Positions 51,007-57,253 of a DNA stretch of 64,000 nt are shown piece by piece (within the stretch, counting starts at the first letter, position 1; each line of letters opens with the position of its first letter). A program made the translations under genes and the position numbers. Under the pieces are notes generated by a model that saw only the letters and a list, made by a program, of their open reading frames with translations, did no database searches and was not told where the DNA came from. The stretch covers positions 4,715,001 through 4,779,000 of the forward strand of contig NZ_CP132910.1 in assembly GCF_030846775.1 (NCBI RefSeq). Direction: 5' to 3'. The stretch is from Geothrix sp. 21YS21S-2 (GTDB taxonomy: Bacteria; Acidobacteriota; Holophagae; Holophagales; Holophagaceae).

Positions 51007-51482
51007 TGCTCACCCTGCGTCCCGCCGCCCCCGGGGACATCCCCCTCATCCTCGCCTACGTGCGGGAGCTGGCCCTGTACGAGAAGGCCCCCGAGAAGGC
51101 CGTGGCCACGGATGCCGACATGCGCGGGGCGATCTTCGGGGAGCACCCCTACGCCTGGGTGATCCTGGCCGAGTGGGAGGGCCGCCCCGCCGGCTTCGCC
51201 CTGTGGTTCTACAACTTCAGCACCTGGGAGGGGAAGCCTTCGCTCTACCTGGAGGACCTCTTCGTGAGGCCCGAGTTCCGTGGCCACGGGATCGGCAAGG
51301 CCCTCCTGAAGCGCCTCGCCGCCATCGCCCTCGAGAAGGGCTGCACGCGCTACATGTGGGCCGTCCTGGACTGGAACCAGCCCTCCATCGACTTCTACGA
51401 GCGCCAGGGAGCCAAGGTGATGCGGGAATGGCTGCACTGCCGGGTCGAGGGCGAGGCACTGGAAAGACTGGCCAGGGAATAG
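51006..51482 (+). CDS. GNAT-family N-acetyltransferase (SSAT-like)
   Basis: 158 residues from ATG 51006, overlapping the previous stop by one base. The acetyl-CoA binding motif is LEDLFVRPEFRGHGIGKALL (R-G-x-G-x-G/A at RGHGIG), with FALWFYNFSTWEGKPSLY before and YMWAVLDWNQPSIDFYERQG after. This pattern is closest to the diamine/thialysine acetyltransferase group (SSAT-like), which acetylates polyamines or lysine analogues. Cytoplasmic. The gene ends just before a very long hairpin (51484-51569). Confidence 0.83.
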   Translation: MLTLRPAAPGDIPLILAYVRELALYEKAPEKAVATDADMRGAIFGEHPYAWVILAEWEGRPAGFALWFYNFSTWEGKPSLYLEDLFVRPEFRGHGIGKALLKRLAAIALEKGCTRYMWAVLDWNQPSIDFYERQGAKVMREWLHCRVEGEALERLARE

Positions 51483-51483
51483 C

Positions 51484-51569
51484 CCTTCCTCGGCGATCCT
51501 CGGCCCCTCGGCCACCTCGGCGGAATGCATCGCCGAGGTGGCCGAGGGGCCGAGGACCGCCAAGGAAGG
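51484..51569. repeat. very long inverted repeat between convergent genes
   Basis: Two 39-base arms (51484-51522 and 51531-51569) around an 8-base loop, with about three mispairs at the junction of CGGCGAT and ACCGCCA. The arms are built of repeats of CTCGGC. Situated exactly between the stop codons of the acetyltransferase and ubiX genes, it can act as a two-way terminator, but it is far longer than needed. Confidence 0.85.
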
Positions 51570-51582
51570 CAGGGAGGGCGGT

Positions 51583-52152
51583 TCAGCCCTTCCATCTCCG
51601 GAAATGGGCGTATTCCATGCCGAACTCCGCCATCACCTTGCCCACCAGGTGGTCCTCCATGTCCTCAACGGACGCGGGACCGTGGTAGGAGGTGAGGACG
51701 GGCGGCATGATCACGACGCCCATCTTCGCCAGTTCGAGCATGTTCTTCAGGTGGATGACGCTGAGAGGCGTCTCCCGGGCCATGAGAACCAGCTTGCGGC
51801 GCTCCTTGAGGGTCACGTCGGCGGCGCGCAGGAGGAGGTTCTCGGAATAGCCGTGGGCGATGCCGGCCACCGTCTTCATGCTGCAGGGGATGACCACCAT
51901 GCCTTCGGTGCGGTAGGTGCCGCTGGCGATGGTGGCGCCGATGTTCCTCACGTCGTGGGTGCGGGTGGCCAGCGCCTCCAGCTCCCTCTGGGGCAGGTGG
52001 AGCTCGTGCTCCAGGGTGCGGCGGGCGCCGTCGGTGGTGACCAGGTCGGTCTCCCAGCCATCCTGCTCCCGCATCGCGTGCAGGAGCCGGATGGCCAGGT
52101 TCGCGCAGCTGGCGCCGCTGATGCCCACCACGAGGCGCTTGGGACCGGTCAT
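51583..52152 (-). CDS. ubiX: UbiX-type flavin prenyltransferase
   Basis: 189 residues. The N-terminal LVVGISGASCANLAIRLLHAM is the FMN-binding start of the UbiX/Pad1 family, and VVIPCSMKTVAGIAHGYSENLLLRA and LVLMARETPLSVIHLKNML match the phosphate and prenyl-phosphate binding segments. It makes prenylated FMN, the cofactor of UbiD decarboxylases; a ubiD gene lies two genes upstream. One base separates it from the DUF554 gene, so ubiD-DUF554-ubiX is one operon. Confidence 0.94.
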   Translation of the reverse strand: MTGPKRLVVGISGASCANLAIRLLHAMREQDGWETDLVTTDGARRTLEHELHLPQRELEALATRTHDVRNIGATIASGTYRTEGMVVIPCSMKTVAGIAHGYSENLLLRAADVTLKERRKLVLMARETPLSVIHLKNMLELAKMGVVIMPPVLTSYHGPASVEDMEDHLVGKVMAEFGMEYAHFRRWKG

Positions 52153-52153
52153 C

Positions 52154-52870
52154 CTAGTGCACCATGAACCGCACCCACAGGGCGCTGATGGGCATGGCGA
52201 TGAAGAGCGCCGGGAGCATGTTCGCCACCGAGAAGGGCTTGATGCCCGCGATGCGGAAGCCCGTGGCGACCATGATGAGGCCGCCGCAGGCGGAGAAGTC
52301 CGCGATCATGAAGGGCGTGGTCATGGGCAGGATCTTGGTGGCGAGCAGGAAGAGGCTGCCCTGGATGACGAACTGCGGGATCGCCAGGGTGGCCACGGAA
52401 TAGCCCAGGGCCGTGGCGAAGATGGCCGCGGTGAAGAGGTCCAGGAAGGACTTCACCATGAGCAGGGAGGTGTCCCCGGTCATGCCCTCGTTCATGGCCC
52501 CGAAGATGCCGGTGCCGCTGGCGCAGAAGAGCACCAGGATGGCCACGAACTTGCCGAGGAACTCCTCGTGGGTGATGCCCTCGGCGGGCTTGGCGAACTT
52601 GTCGATGAAGCCGCGGGTCTTGCTGGCGAGCTTCATGATGTAGTCCTCCAGGTGGAGGAGCTCGCCGATGGCGGTGCCCACCAGGAGGGCTAGGATCACC
52701 GCGGGGAGGAACTTGACCTTGACGATCATGGCGATGCCCAGGCCCATGGAGGACACCCCGAAGACCAGGGGCATCTTGGTGCGCAGGTTCTCGCTGATCT
52801 TGTTGCCCATGGAGGCGCCGGTGAGGCTGCCGAGGACCACGGACGCGCCGTTGACGAAAGGACCGATCAT
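52154..52870 (-). CDS. DUF554 membrane protein
   Basis: 238 residues from ATG 52870 (GGAG upstream), about seven hydrophobic segments, with VNGASVVLGSLTGASMG at the start, and FCASGTGIFGAMNEGMTGD in the middle, which are recognisable DUF554 (YdfK/YqgA-like) landmarks. The family is uncharacterised and often described as putative transporters. Here it is embedded between ubiD and ubiX, so import of the acid substrate or export of the decarboxylated product is a reasonable guess. It starts 34 bases after ubiD ends. Confidence 0.82.
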   Translation of the reverse strand: MIGPFVNGASVVLGSLTGASMGNKISENLRTKMPLVFGVSSMGLGIAMIVKVKFLPAVILALLVGTAIGELLHLEDYIMKLASKTRGFIDKFAKPAEGITHEEFLGKFVAILVLFCASGTGIFGAMNEGMTGDTSLLMVKSFLDLFTAAIFATALGYSVATLAIPQFVIQGSLFLLATKILPMTTPFMIADFSACGGLIMVATGFRIAGIKPFSVANMLPALFIAMPISALWVRFMVH

Positions 52871-52904
52871 ATGTGCTCCGGAAGAAGGTGGGTTGCGGGT
52901 CGGC

Positions 52905-54380
52905 CTAGAGGAAGCGCTTGTAGTCGACTTCCATGAACTGGGCGCGCTGGAACCTCGCCTTGAGCTCGAAGGGGACGGTGCAGTCGAAGATGGCCTTGGT
53001 GGTGATGCCCTTGCCGCGGATGGAGGGGCTCATCTCGGGGGTCTGGGAGGGGTCCAGGGGGTGGCAGCGCACGCCGGGGATGGCGATGACGTCGGCATCG
53101 GCCTGGAAGCGGGTGGTCATGGCCCACAGCACGTCGTTGGTGTCGAAGGGGTCCACGTCCTCGTCCACGAGGATCACGTGCTTGAGCTCGGAGAAGGACG
53201 AGAAGGCCAGGAGCGCGGCCTGGCGCTGGCGGCCCTCGTCGAAGGGCACGGCCTTCTTCACCTGGAGGATGGCGAGGTACTTGCCGCCGCCCGAGGGGTG
53301 CGCGTAGACGTTCTGCAGGAAGCCGGGAAGGGCCTTGCCGACCATCATCTTGATGGAGGCCTCGGTGGGGATGCCCGCGAGGTTCACGTGCTCCTCGGAG
53401 GGACCGATGGTGGTCTGCATGATGGGATTGACGCGGTGGGTGACGGCCGTGACCTTGATGACGGGCAGGCTCGGGTGCGCGGGGCCGTTGTAGCCGGGGA
53501 ACTCGGGCATCGCCTTGCCGGTGTGGCTGTTCTGGTCCTCCACGACGCGCACGTCGGGCTGGAGGAAGCCCTCGATGACGATCTCGGCGTGGGCGATGGC
53601 CTTGGCGTCCACCGTGAGGCACTCGACCACTTCCACGGCCTTGCCCCGCAGCGCGCCGGCGATGCCCAGCTCGTTGAAGCCCAGGGGCGTGGAGGGGGCC
53701 TCGAAGCACGCGGCGACGTACACCGCGGGGTCCAGGCCGATGCTGATGGAGATGGGCTGGGGCTGGCCGGCCTTCTCGGCCTTGATGCGGAAGGCGTCCA
53801 GGTGGCGGCCGGGGACGAACATCATGGAGATCTCGTCCTTGCCCTGGATGCAGAGGCGGTGGATGGTCACGTCCTCCTGGCCGTTCTCGGGATCCTTGCC
53901 GTAGCACAGGCCCATGGTGATGAAGGGGCCGGCGTCCTCGGGGGTATTGGTGGGGGCGGGGATGAGGGTCCGGATGTCGAAGCCGGGTTCGGAGGCCTTG
54001 TGGACCACTTCCTGGCACACGGCGCTGCCGGCCTTGACGACCTTGGGAACGATGGGGGCGTTGAGCGCGTCGCAGAGGATGGAACCCACCTTCTCCACGG
54101 TCGTGCCCAGGAGCAGGGCCACGCGCCTGCGGTCGGCGAGCATGCCGATGGAGACGCGGGAGCCGGGAAAGCCCTTGATGTTGTTGAAGAGCATCGCGGG
54201 GCCGAGCTTGGTGGGGCGCATGACGGTGCCGCCCGCGCCGATGTAGCGGTAGACGCCGGAGAGCTCGGCGATGGGGTCCACTTCCACGTCGGTCTGGTGC
54301 AGCTGCCCCTCGTGCTGCTCCAGGAGCTCGATGGCCGAGCGGAGATCGTGGACGGTGACGGCGGTTTCTATTGGCGACAT
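52905..54380 (-). CDS. ubiD: UbiD-family prFMN-dependent (de)carboxylase
   Basis: 491 residues from ATG 54380, with a strong AGGAGG six bases upstream. UbiD landmarks in order: VYRYIGAGGTVMRPT, PAMLFNNIKGFPGSRV, LPAPTNTPEDAGPFITMG-like segment (about 155-175), AEIVIEG and AMPEFPGYNGPA in the Glu-rich active-site region, and the C-terminal VDEDVDPFDTNDVLWAMTTR. It carboxylates or decarboxylates an aromatic or unsaturated acid using the prenyl-FMN made by the UbiX encoded downstream. Its length fits 4-hydroxybenzoate, protocatechuate or gallate decarboxylases; substrate is not decided. In an anaerobe it could open the breakdown of phenolic acids. Controlled probably by the upstream LysR gene. 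Confidence 0.92.
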   Translation of the reverse strand: MSPIETAVTVHDLRSAIELLEQHEGQLHQTDVEVDPIAELSGVYRYIGAGGTVMRPTKLGPAMLFNNIKGFPGSRVSIGMLADRRRVALLLGTTVEKVGSILCDALNAPIVPKVVKAGSAVCQEVVHKASEPGFDIRTLIPAPTNTPEDAGPFITMGLCYGKDPENGQEDVTIHRLCIQGKDEISMMFVPGRHLDAFRIKAEKAGQPQPISISIGLDPAVYVAACFEAPSTPLGFNELGIAGALRGKAVEVVECLTVDAKAIAHAEIVIEGFLQPDVRVVEDQNSHTGKAMPEFPGYNGPAHPSLPVIKVTAVTHRVNPIMQTTIGPSEEHVNLAGIPTEASIKMMVGKALPGFLQNVYAHPSGGGKYLAILQVKKAVPFDEGRQRQAALLAFSSFSELKHVILVDEDVDPFDTNDVLWAMTTRFQADADVIAIPGVRCHPLDPSQTPEMSPSIRGKGITTKAIFDCTVPFELKARFQRAQFMEVDYKRFL

Positions 54381-54430
54381 CTGGGTCCTCCTTTTAGGAT
54401 TCCCCATCAGACCGCAGACGATTTCCCGCG

Positions 54431-54460
54431 GATAATACCGTTTCCAACTGCGGTCCATTG
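54431..54460 (-). promoter_or_regulatory. ubiD promoter, shared motif with porin 2
   Basis: On the minus strand CAATGG, 17 bases, then TATTAT, placed about 45 bases before the ubiD ATG. About 24 of the first 28 bases are the same at 55384-55411 upstream of the second porin, in the same orientation to the gene. Confidence 0.6.
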
Positions 54461-54475
54461 TCCTTCGATATGGAG

Positions 54476-55360
54476 CTACCCGGCCACAATCGCCTCGATG
54501 ACGTCGCGGATGGCCTGCGACAGGTACCGGTCCGTGCGGTGGATGAGCGCGGGGTGCAGGGTCAGGCCCGGCAGGTCCAGGGGGTGGATCTCGAAGCGGT
54601 CCCCGAGCGTCCCGGGGATCTCCGAGGCGGGGATGATGGCGGCGGCCTGCAGACCCCGCAGAAGGCAGCCCAGCAGGGTCCGCACATCCGGTGAATCCAG
54701 GATGATGCGGGGTTCGATATCCTTCTCCTGGAAGGCCTTCAGCAGGAATTCGAAGGTGCCTCCACCGGTCCAGCGCCGCATGCAGATCAGCGGGATCCCG
54801 GCCAGGTGCTCGACGCCGATCCGCGCGGGCAGGCCCGCGGGTGCCAGCCCCGCCGGCATGACCACGCAGAGGTTGCCCGTGGGAAGCAGGCGCACCGTGT
54901 TGCCTTCCTTCGGCACGGGGAGGAGCAGGATCGCGAAGTCCAGCTCCCTGGATTCCACGTGGGTCGCCAGGTCCGAGCTGTCGGAGATGAGCAGGCTGAA
55001 CTTCAGCCTGGGAAAGCGCGCGTTGAACCCGGGCAGCAGCTTGAGGAAGTGGGACGCGCACACGCTGGAGGTGCCGATGCGGATCGTCCCCGAGAGCCCG
55101 TCGGCCACGTTCTTGACTTCGGAGGGGATGTCGCCCAGCTGGTCCAGGACCTGCCGGGCCCGCTCGTAGAGCATCCGTCCGGACTCCGTCACCTGCCAGG
55201 CGTGGCCCTCGCGGATGATGAGCTGGACGCCGAGCTCGTCCTCCAGTTCCTTGAGGCGCTGGCTCAGCGGGGGCTGGGACATGTTGAGGAGCCGCGCGGC
55301 GCGGCTGATCTGGCCCTGCTCGACGATGGTGCAGTAGTACGTGAGCCGCTTGGTGTCCAT
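54476..55360 (-). CDS. LysR-family transcriptional regulator
   Basis: 294 residues from ATG 55360. The winged helix-turn-helix is at 1-65 (TYYCTIVEQGQISRAARLLN, MSQPPLSQRLKELEDELG), then a two-lobed periplasmic-binding-type ligand domain from about 90 (GTIRIGTSSVCASHFLKLLP). Such regulators usually respond to the substrate or an intermediate of the pathway they control. It lies directly upstream of ubiD on the same strand and divergent from porin 2; the repeated ~30-bp sequence upstream of both suggests that it controls both. Confidence 0.9.
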   Translation of the reverse strand: MDTKRLTYYCTIVEQGQISRAARLLNMSQPPLSQRLKELEDELGVQLIIREGHAWQVTESGRMLYERARQVLDQLGDIPSEVKNVADGLSGTIRIGTSSVCASHFLKLLPGFNARFPRLKFSLLISDSSDLATHVESRELDFAILLLPVPKEGNTVRLLPTGNLCVVMPAGLAPAGLPARIGVEHLAGIPLICMRRWTGGGTFEFLLKAFQEKDIEPRIILDSPDVRTLLGCLLRGLQAAAIIPASEIPGTLGDRFEIHPLDLPGLTLHPALIHRTDRYLSQAIRDVIEAIVAG

Positions 55361-55383
55361 GGGGCTTCCCTCATATCGGCTTG

Positions 55384-55440
55384 CAATGGTCCCCAGTGCG
55401 AAACGGTATTAGGGCGCATCCCCGACTGGGCGTATTCCCA
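55384..55440 (+). promoter_or_regulatory. porin 2 promoter and possible LysR site
   Basis: CAATGG, 17 bases, TATTAG (55384-55412), nearly the same as the ubiD promoter, followed by the inverted repeat TGGG-CGTATT-CCCA (55427-55440), which suits a LysR-type T-N11-A operator. The mRNA leader to the porin ATG would be about 130 bases. Confidence 0.55.
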
Positions 55441-55551
55441 TAGTGACCCATTTTTTTCCTTCCGGGGCAAGCGCCCCGATCTCCGAATGTCCCCGTGCCG
55501 CGGCCTGTACCGCCGGGGGAAACGTCCACCCACTTTCCGAGGAGCGCCCCC

Positions 55552-56796
55552 ATGCGCCGCAACCCAACCCTGTCCCTGCTCGCGCTGGCGTCCATCGGCG
55601 CCTGCGCCCAGGCCGCCGACGTGCAGATCTACGCCACGCTCCTCCCCTTCCTGGAGAGCGTGAGGACCACGGGCGCCACGCCCGCGGGCCTCACGCCCGC
55701 CCTGGGCGGCGCCAGCCAGGTTCCGGGTTCGGCCTACACGGGCCTCGACCTCCCCTCCCGCCTGCGCATCACCTCCGGCACCTCCAACCTGGGCTTCCGG
55801 GGCGCGTGGAAGGTGGCCGACGACCTCCAGGTGTTCTGGCAGATCGAGAACGCCATCAGCCCCGACGGCGACGCCCCCAACACCCTGGCGGGCCGCAACT
55901 CCGCCGTGGGCCTCAAGGGCAGCTGGGGCACCGCGTTCTACGGCAACTGGGACACGCCCTACAAGTTCCCTCTCCTGGCCGTGGGCCCCCTGCGCGGCCT
56001 GAGCCCCTTCGACAACGCGCTCACCGCCAACCCCGGCTTCAACGTGCCCGGCACCACGACCCAGAGCGGCCGCGTCAACGGCAAGGCCGATGCCGCCTTC
56101 AACCGCCGGCAAGGCAACAGCATCCAGTACTGGTCCCCCGTGTGGAACGGCTTCTCCGCCCGCGTGGGCGTCTCCGTGGACGAGGGGAAGACCGTCGCCA
56201 CCGCCGCCGCGCCCTCCGTGAGTCCCACGATCCTTTCCGGCCTCGTGACCTATGCCCAGGGCCCCGTGAAGGTCAGCTACGGGTTCGAGCGGCACAACGA
56301 CTACTTCGGCCTGTCCCAGCTGGGCGGCAACGCTGGCGCCACCCTGACGAACAAGGCCTCTTCCGACACCGGGCAGGAACTGGTGGCGTCCTACGCCTTC
56401 AGCACCGGCACCAAGGTCTCCGCGGTGGTGGAGCAGCTCACGTACGACACCGACGACACCGCCGCCGGCGCCCTCCGCCAGTACAAGCGCACCAATTGGT
56501 ACACCCTGGTCCAGCAGCAGCTCGGCAGGCACCAGGTGTGGGCGGCTTTCGGCCGCGGCAGCGCCGGTTCCGCCCAGCGCAACGGCGGCGCCGCCGCCTC
56601 CACGGACGGGCTGGAAGGGACCCAGTGGAGCGCGGGCTATTCCTACGCCATCGCCAAGAACGTGGACCTGTTCGCGTCGTACTACGGCATGACCAACGGC
56701 CGCTCCGGCACCCTCGCCGAGTTCCCGCCGGTGGGTACCGTCGCCCCGGGCGCGAACACCACGGGCATGGGCCTGGGCCTGCTCATCACGTTCTAG
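55552..56796 (+). CDS. outer-membrane porin, paralogue of 28146
   Basis: 414 residues from ATG 55552 (GAGGAG upstream). Signal peptide NPTLSLLALASIGACAQA; the mature start ADVQIYATLLPFLE and final Phe (MGLGLLITF) are as in porin 1. Long identical blocks with porin 1 include FNRRQGNS, NPGFNVPGTTTQ, FGNWDTPYK-like YGNWDTPYK, and YAFSTGTKVSAVVE-like strands; overall they look more than half identical. Loop sequences differ, so selectivity may differ. Placed in the ubiD locus, it could admit the aromatic acid. Its stop overlaps the convergent SnoaL-like gene by 11 bases. Confidence 0.88.
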   Translation: MRRNPTLSLLALASIGACAQAADVQIYATLLPFLESVRTTGATPAGLTPALGGASQVPGSAYTGLDLPSRLRITSGTSNLGFRGAWKVADDLQVFWQIENAISPDGDAPNTLAGRNSAVGLKGSWGTAFYGNWDTPYKFPLLAVGPLRGLSPFDNALTANPGFNVPGTTTQSGRVNGKADAAFNRRQGNSIQYWSPVWNGFSARVGVSVDEGKTVATAAAPSVSPTILSGLVTYAQGPVKVSYGFERHNDYFGLSQLGGNAGATLTNKASSDTGQELVASYAFSTGTKVSAVVEQLTYDTDDTAAGALRQYKRTNWYTLVQQQLGRHQVWAAFGRGSAGSAQRNGGAAASTDGLEGTQWSAGYSYAIAKNVDLFASYYGMTNGRSGTLAEFPPVGTVAPGANTTGMGLGLLITF

Positions 56797-57253
56797 GTTC
56801 CATCCGTTCGGGCGTCCCGGTCAGCCAGAGGATGCCCAGCTTGACGCTCACGAACTTCCAGCCCTGGGGCGTGCGGCGGTACGTGCTGTCGTACCAGCCG
56901 CCGCCGTCCCAGTGCTCGAAGGGCGTGGCGCCCACGTGGACGGCCTGGAGGCAGGAGCGGGATGCCGCGGTGTCGCCGTCGACCGTGATCTGGTGGTTGG
57001 TGCTGATGTGGTGGGTGCCCGAATACCTGGCGAGGCCGTGGGGCATCAGCTCGGGCATGCGCTCCCTGGGCATGCGGAACGTGCCGCCGGTGGTGGGGTC
57101 GGGAAGCTCCACGTAGCCGCCCTCCGCGAAGTTGGCCGCATAGCCTTCGTAGTCCTTCGCGTCCAGGCAGGACGCGAAGCTGAACAGCAGGTCGCTGATG
57201 AGGGCGCGGTCGACGAGCCACTGCACCTGGTCACGGATGGAGGAATCGGTCAT
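56786..57253 (-). CDS. SnoaL-like protein
   Basis: 155 residues from ATG 57253 (GGAGC upstream), no signal peptide, so cytoplasmic. The pattern DRALISDLLFSFASCLDAKDYEGYAANFAEGG, THHISTNHQITVDGDTAASRS and WYDSTYRRTPQGWKF is that of the SnoaL_4 / scytalone-dehydratase-like branch of the NTF2 fold, often found in aromatic or hydroxylated-ring metabolism. A role in processing a product of the UbiD reaction is possible by location only. Convergent with porin 2. Confidence 0.8.
   Translation of the reverse strand: MTDSSIRDQVQWLVDRALISDLLFSFASCLDAKDYEGYAANFAEGGYVELPDPTTGGTFRMPRERMPELMPHGLARYSGTHHISTNHQITVDGDTAASRSCLQAVHVGATPFEHWDGGGWYDSTYRRTPQGWKFVSVKLGILWLTGTPERMEPRT

Follow-up and report, generated by a model that had tools for sequence, protein, structure and literature searches.

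What is the sequence that occurs twice, in opposite orientations, on either side of a single gene for a LysR-type regulator: a promoter shared by two transcription units, or a pair of operators through which the regulator would control both? In the window (the whole stretch of 64,000 nucleotides that was analysed), this 294-aa regulator (54476..55360, - strand; HTH domain PF00126 and substrate-binding domain PF03466, both above cut-off) is encoded between ubiD-DUF554-ubiX on the - strand and the gene for porin 2 on the + strand (55552..56796; 414 aa), a Gram-negative porin (Porin_4, PF13609). The ubiD gene (52905..54380, -) encodes a 491-aa UbiD-family decarboxylase of the AroY (protocatechuate decarboxylase) type and is followed after 34 nt by the gene for a DUF554 membrane protein (52154..52870, -; PF04474) and, after a 1-nt gap, by that for a UbiX-family flavin prenyltransferase (51583..52152, -; NF004685 and TIGR00421 above cut-off). 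The closest solved structures of this UbiD are by far those of AroY (PDB 5o3m, E=3e-202, residues 9-490), and protocatechuate-like acids are therefore its likely substrates. A SnoaL-like gene (56786-57253, -), convergent with porin 2 and overlapping its end, has no counterpart at the matching place in two relatives (G005 and G002). Elsewhere in the same genome there is a second AroY-type ubiD, 90% identical (L129:7655-9127, corresponding to G000:C1:2162154-2163626), which has no operator of the window type.

Two LysR-like dyads in a 40-bp repeat

A sequence-only reading of the window had described a repeat of about 30 bp and taken it for a promoter. As it claimed, the two copies are identical at 24 of 28 positions from CAATGG onward (54460 on the - strand, 55384 on the + strand), both contain a 17-base spacer and TATTA(T/G), and each is oriented, on opposite strands, towards the gene that it precedes. 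The repeat is thus real, but its true length is 40 bp, an upstream part with CATATCG having been missed: it starts 12 bases before CAATGG, shows 31/40 identical positions between 54472-54433 (-) and 55372-55411 (+), and is the longest inverted pair within 54380-55560. The copy on the ubiD side, putative operator A (54433..54472, -; CATATCGAAGGACAATGGACCGCAGTTGGAAACGGTATTA), starts 3 nt past the lysR stop codon, and that on the porin 2 side, putative operator B (55372..55411, +; CATATCGGCTTGCAATGGTCCCCAGTGCGAAACGGTATTA), lies at 12 nt from the start codon of lysR. When the two intergenic regions were shuffled 3000 times (first-order Markov), no pair of 28-mers exceeded 21 identities (24 observed) and no pair of 40-mers exceeded 26 (31 observed). 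A search of the genome had also been proposed, and CAATGGNCCNCAGTNNGAAACGGTATTA with up to 3 mismatches was found in two places only in the 5.25 Mb, the same two that were the only matches to a less stringent pattern of 19 bases (3 mismatches at most).

What these boxes might be is suggested by the alignment of 11 of them from the genus, in which the invariant or nearly invariant columns are CAT (1-3), ATG (15-17), CA (23-24) and GGTATT (34-39). These columns outline two dyads. Site 1, CAT-N11-ATG (54456..54472, - in operator A; 55372..55388, + in operator B), has an ATG that is invariant and a CAT that is present in 10/11 boxes. Site 2 begins 22 bp downstream of site 1 and has the form CA(G/T)-N11-ATT, CAG-N11-ATT in the window (54434..54450, - in operator A; 55394..55410, + in operator B), with an invariant right half GTATT. 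Both dyads are nearly perfect in one member of the genus (G004), where they read CATAT-N7-GTATG and CATAC-N7-GTATT. The standard LysR-type operator consists of tandem T-N11-A dyads, its recognition site lying near -65 and its activation sites close to -35 and -10 (PMC11602165). Read against the alignment, CAATGG consists of the right half of site 1 plus one more base, and TATTA corresponds to the right half of site 2.

The likely place of the promoters

A consensus scan of 51300-57000 gave no sigma-70 promoter. A -10-like signal is conserved beyond the dyads, 22 bases past the end of site 2 (box positions 62-67). In seven promoters of the genus (those of the window, of G001 and of G004), the best match to TATAAT downstream of the box falls at position 62 (mean 3.43 vs 1.36; 0/2000 shuffles), and in the ubiD promoters of the genus nearly all columns that are invariant upstream of the ribosome-binding site lie either in the box or in this putative -10. 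When thirty Bacillales promoters (28 loci plus L053, L054 and L057) are aligned on the box, an extended -10 is seen at the same place, TG occupying 59-60 and TAnnnT 62-67. The likely -10 elements of the window, assigned from this aligned position, are TCTGAT for the ubiD operon (54406..54411, -), with a predicted start near 54399, and TATTCC for porin 2 (55433..55438, +), with a predicted start near 55445. Site 1 would then be centred near -65, where a recognition site is expected, and site 2, the putative activation site, near -43, both distances being counted from predicted starts. The two hexamers are weak and have no good -35, as expected for activator-dependent promoters.

This bears directly on the proposal that the repeat itself is the core promoter, with CAATGG as -35 and TATTA(T/G) as -10, read by a special or a housekeeping sigma factor, the shared promoter accounting for co-regulation. 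The 17-base spacing is in accord with it, as is the finding that the better match to TATAAT for the window ubiD is TATTAT (5/6), which lies inside the box and is conserved with it. However, CAATGG matches TTGACA at 0/6 positions, both supposed hexamers coincide with right halves of the LysR dyads and the second element takes the form of a perfect dyad in G004 (CATAC-N7-GTATT). Moreover, conservation reaches upstream to CATATCG, with dyad symmetry, position 41 within the supposed -10 varies (T, G, or T/G among relatives), and a separate conserved -10 is found at 62-67. Finally, the boxes number two per genome and always lie near a LysR of the window type, unlike the promoters of a sigma factor. 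We therefore consider it very improbable that the repeat is a core promoter, and favour the reading of both boxes as LysR operators lying upstream of the promoters.

Conservation, and a change of regulator

The relatives found by sequence belong to the Holophagaceae, in the phylum Acidobacteriota. Both boxes are kept at the same places in the orthologous loci of three other species of the genus, G005, G002 and G001, whose lysR genes are 89, 86 and 60% identical to that of the window, with the caveat that the porin box of G001 matches at only 25/40 positions. Across 60 genomes, the 19-base pattern occurs in 13 places, 11 of which lie, in five genomes, near a close LysR homologue (50-100% identical), while the reversed pattern used as a control gave 0 matches over the same genomes. 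No box was found in G003 (81% complete), the sole member of the genus without a close LysR homologue. In G004, where lysR is 50% identical and there is no AroY-type ubiD, three boxes lie on a 23.7-kb contig (C267) and precede genes for an MFS symporter, an acylating-type aldehyde dehydrogenase and a porin of the Pfam family of porin 2, the last of which adjoins aroD and an aroE-like gene. The genes linked by boxes on this contig (L036, L068), which include an MFS shikimate-transporter-like gene, are likely to form a cluster for the use of shikimate or quinate.

The same dyad phasing was found upstream of lysR in most of 34 homologues of the Bacillales and of the Azospira family. A two-dyad score of at least 13/15 is reached in 34/43 LysR homologues and in 0.7% of shuffles, which also cover the AT-rich background of the Bacillales, although the Bacillales pattern was partly drawn from three of the loci first seen. 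In the Bacillales, the dyad pairs are mostly 18-34 nt from the lysR start (30 loci), and some homologues of the Azospira family have a recognizable box with slightly altered spacing. The Bacillales promoters (L072-L101) also show an additional conserved CATAT at box positions 43-47, after site 2, which is not conserved in the genus of the window and might be a third subsite for LysR that overlaps the -35. A two-dyad geometry peculiar to this LysR clade had to be ruled out, since 4/25 distant LysR genes share it. Geometry alone cannot therefore identify the regulator, whose identity rests on co-occurrence and on what has happened in another genus.

This genus, of the same family, is represented by G035, in which the structural genes of the module are readily recognized (porin 2 is 65%, ubiD 82%, DUF554 86% and ubiX 59% identical), while the LysR encoded between porin and ubiD is only 24% identical to that of the window. 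The window-type box is absent from this module. Instead, another repeat, TCAATC...AAGTATTGGAT, is common to its ubiD and porin promoters (22/28 identities, 0/3000 shuffles), although over 40 bases the match is only marginal (26 identities, P about 0.0007). LysR proteins of the G035 type, 46-55% identical to one another, are encoded in G013, in G021, in G001 and in the second cluster of the window's genome, and have a recurrent element of their own, ATCAATC...(A/G)TATTGGA(C/T), found in four genomes and as a weaker variant in a fifth (G001). That second cluster (L129), which contains the other AroY-type ubiD, also holds a ubiX and a third ubiD-like gene. A different LysR thus comes with a different shared repeat, which suggests that the operator sequence follows the regulator and that joint control of decarboxylase and porin has been kept. 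Although it is drawn from sequence, this replacement provides the strongest argument for a real regulon and for boxes that belong to LysR.

It also weighs heavily against the notion that some other regulator, encoded elsewhere, binds the boxes, the neighbouring LysR being a bystander. This notion draws on the generality of LysR-like geometry and on the fact that the pairing of this LysR with the box is something we infer. Nevertheless, the boxes are found in genomes with a window-type LysR and lie at most a few kb from it (11/13 pattern matches), and when the neighbouring LysR changes the operator sequence changes too, while the structural genes stay. A bystander LysR therefore seems most unlikely, and the regulator encoded between the boxes is the preferred candidate.

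The proposed regulon and comparable systems

Very probably, then, both 40-bp boxes are operators of the LysR encoded between them, which would jointly induce porin 2 and the ubiD operon. The single regulon of ubiD-DUF554-ubiX and porin 2 that had been proposed at the outset is strongly supported under this LysR by conservation, co-occurrence and regulator replacement, while the notion that it rests on a shared promoter has found no support. The following scenario can be outlined. In each box, the dyads are 22 bp (about two helical turns) apart and would lie on one face of the DNA, so that one LysR tetramer probably holds both the recognition site at about -65 and the activation site at about -43, beside the -35 position. 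Upon binding its co-inducer, for which an aromatic or hydroaromatic acid, for instance protocatechuate, is the most likely candidate, LysR would activate the promoters downstream, neither of which has a good -35. Joint induction would combine uptake through porin 2 with decarboxylation by UbiD, using the cofactor made by UbiX, and with whatever DUF554 contributes. Since operator B overlaps the lysR leader, lysR is probably autoregulated. That LysR tetramers at the two inverted boxes, about 900 bp apart and flanking lysR in four species, loop out lysR and thereby couple the promoters is a very improbable and unneeded reading, as each box has a complete set of two dyads and the G004 boxes, 1.6 and 7.5 kb apart, are arranged differently.

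The role of DUF554 deserves comment. In the Azospira family, it is the product of the gene divergent from the LysR homologue in 5/5 cases (L056, L102-L105; DUF554 48-51% identical). A search of 229 genomes of the class around Azospira (E<=1e-60) found Azospira itself only. The divergent genes in the Bacillales include 4-hydroxyphenylacetate genes (encoding HpaB, an aldehyde dehydrogenase, a DHDPS-family protein and an extradiol-dioxygenase-like protein) and VdcC/BsdC-type ubiX-ubiD, which links the LysR clade throughout to aromatic acids. The presence of DUF554 inside the ubiD-ubiX operon and in divergent position in the Azospira family suggests a role in aromatic-acid transport or tolerance, and in two phyla connects this uncharacterized family with a regulator linked to aromatic acids. 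Structure prediction for DUF554 gave a mean pLDDT of 44, no solved structure matches it, and a literature search on the family returned only three papers, all unrelated. A second DUF554 gene of the same genome, 68% identical (L118:3582-4301, corresponding to G000:C1:3742584-3743270), sits between genes for a flavin-dependent oxidoreductase and a different LysR on the same strand.

The unusual points of this system are the replacement of regulator and operators together and DUF554 as a recurrent target. It is a tentative and somewhat doubtful suggestion that the module swapped its LysR between genera, rebuilt both operators and kept joint control, with DUF554 as a standing target of the clade that would be a transporter or channel for aromatic acids or their products. 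What emerges is a specific candidate operator and a candidate regulon through which uptake and decarboxylation of aromatic acids would be controlled in the Holophagaceae (Acidobacteriota), where few regulators have been studied, together with a corrected likely place for the promoters and a natural case in which a regulator and both its putative operators have changed together while the regulated genes have stayed. A literature search found no paper on this operator.

Comparison with known systems is nonetheless instructive. The likeness to AroY (3,4-dihydroxybenzoate decarboxylase; PDB 5o3m, 5o3n and 5ny5) extends over the full-length UbiD alignment mentioned above and is one of sequence, the difference being that the window's genome has the second ubiD copy outside the window-type operator. 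With the generic three-subsite model of LysR operators (PMC11602165), the locus shares T-N11-A dyads, a predicted place of site 1 near -65 and of a second site beside the -35, an adjacent regulator gene and a weak putative core promoter. It departs from this model in that the centre of site 2 is predicted at about -43, that the genus shows no conserved third site (ABS II), and that the regulator gene has a complete putative operator on either side rather than a single divergent region. Judged by gene arrangement, the closest described system appears to be that of Bacillus subtilis BsdA (YclA), a LysR activator of the phenolic-acid decarboxylase operon bsdBCD (PMC5541019), since both have a LysR beside an operon for a ubiX/ubiD-type non-oxidative decarboxylase. 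LysR homologues 39-41% identical, encoded beside VdcC/BsdC-type operons (L053, L054), bear the same two-dyad operator. However, the UbiD of the window is of the AroY type rather than BsdC/VdcC (452.8 bits, below the VdcC cut-off of 650), and its operon, in which no bsdD was found, contains DUF554 instead, with a porin promoter added to the presumed targets of the regulator.
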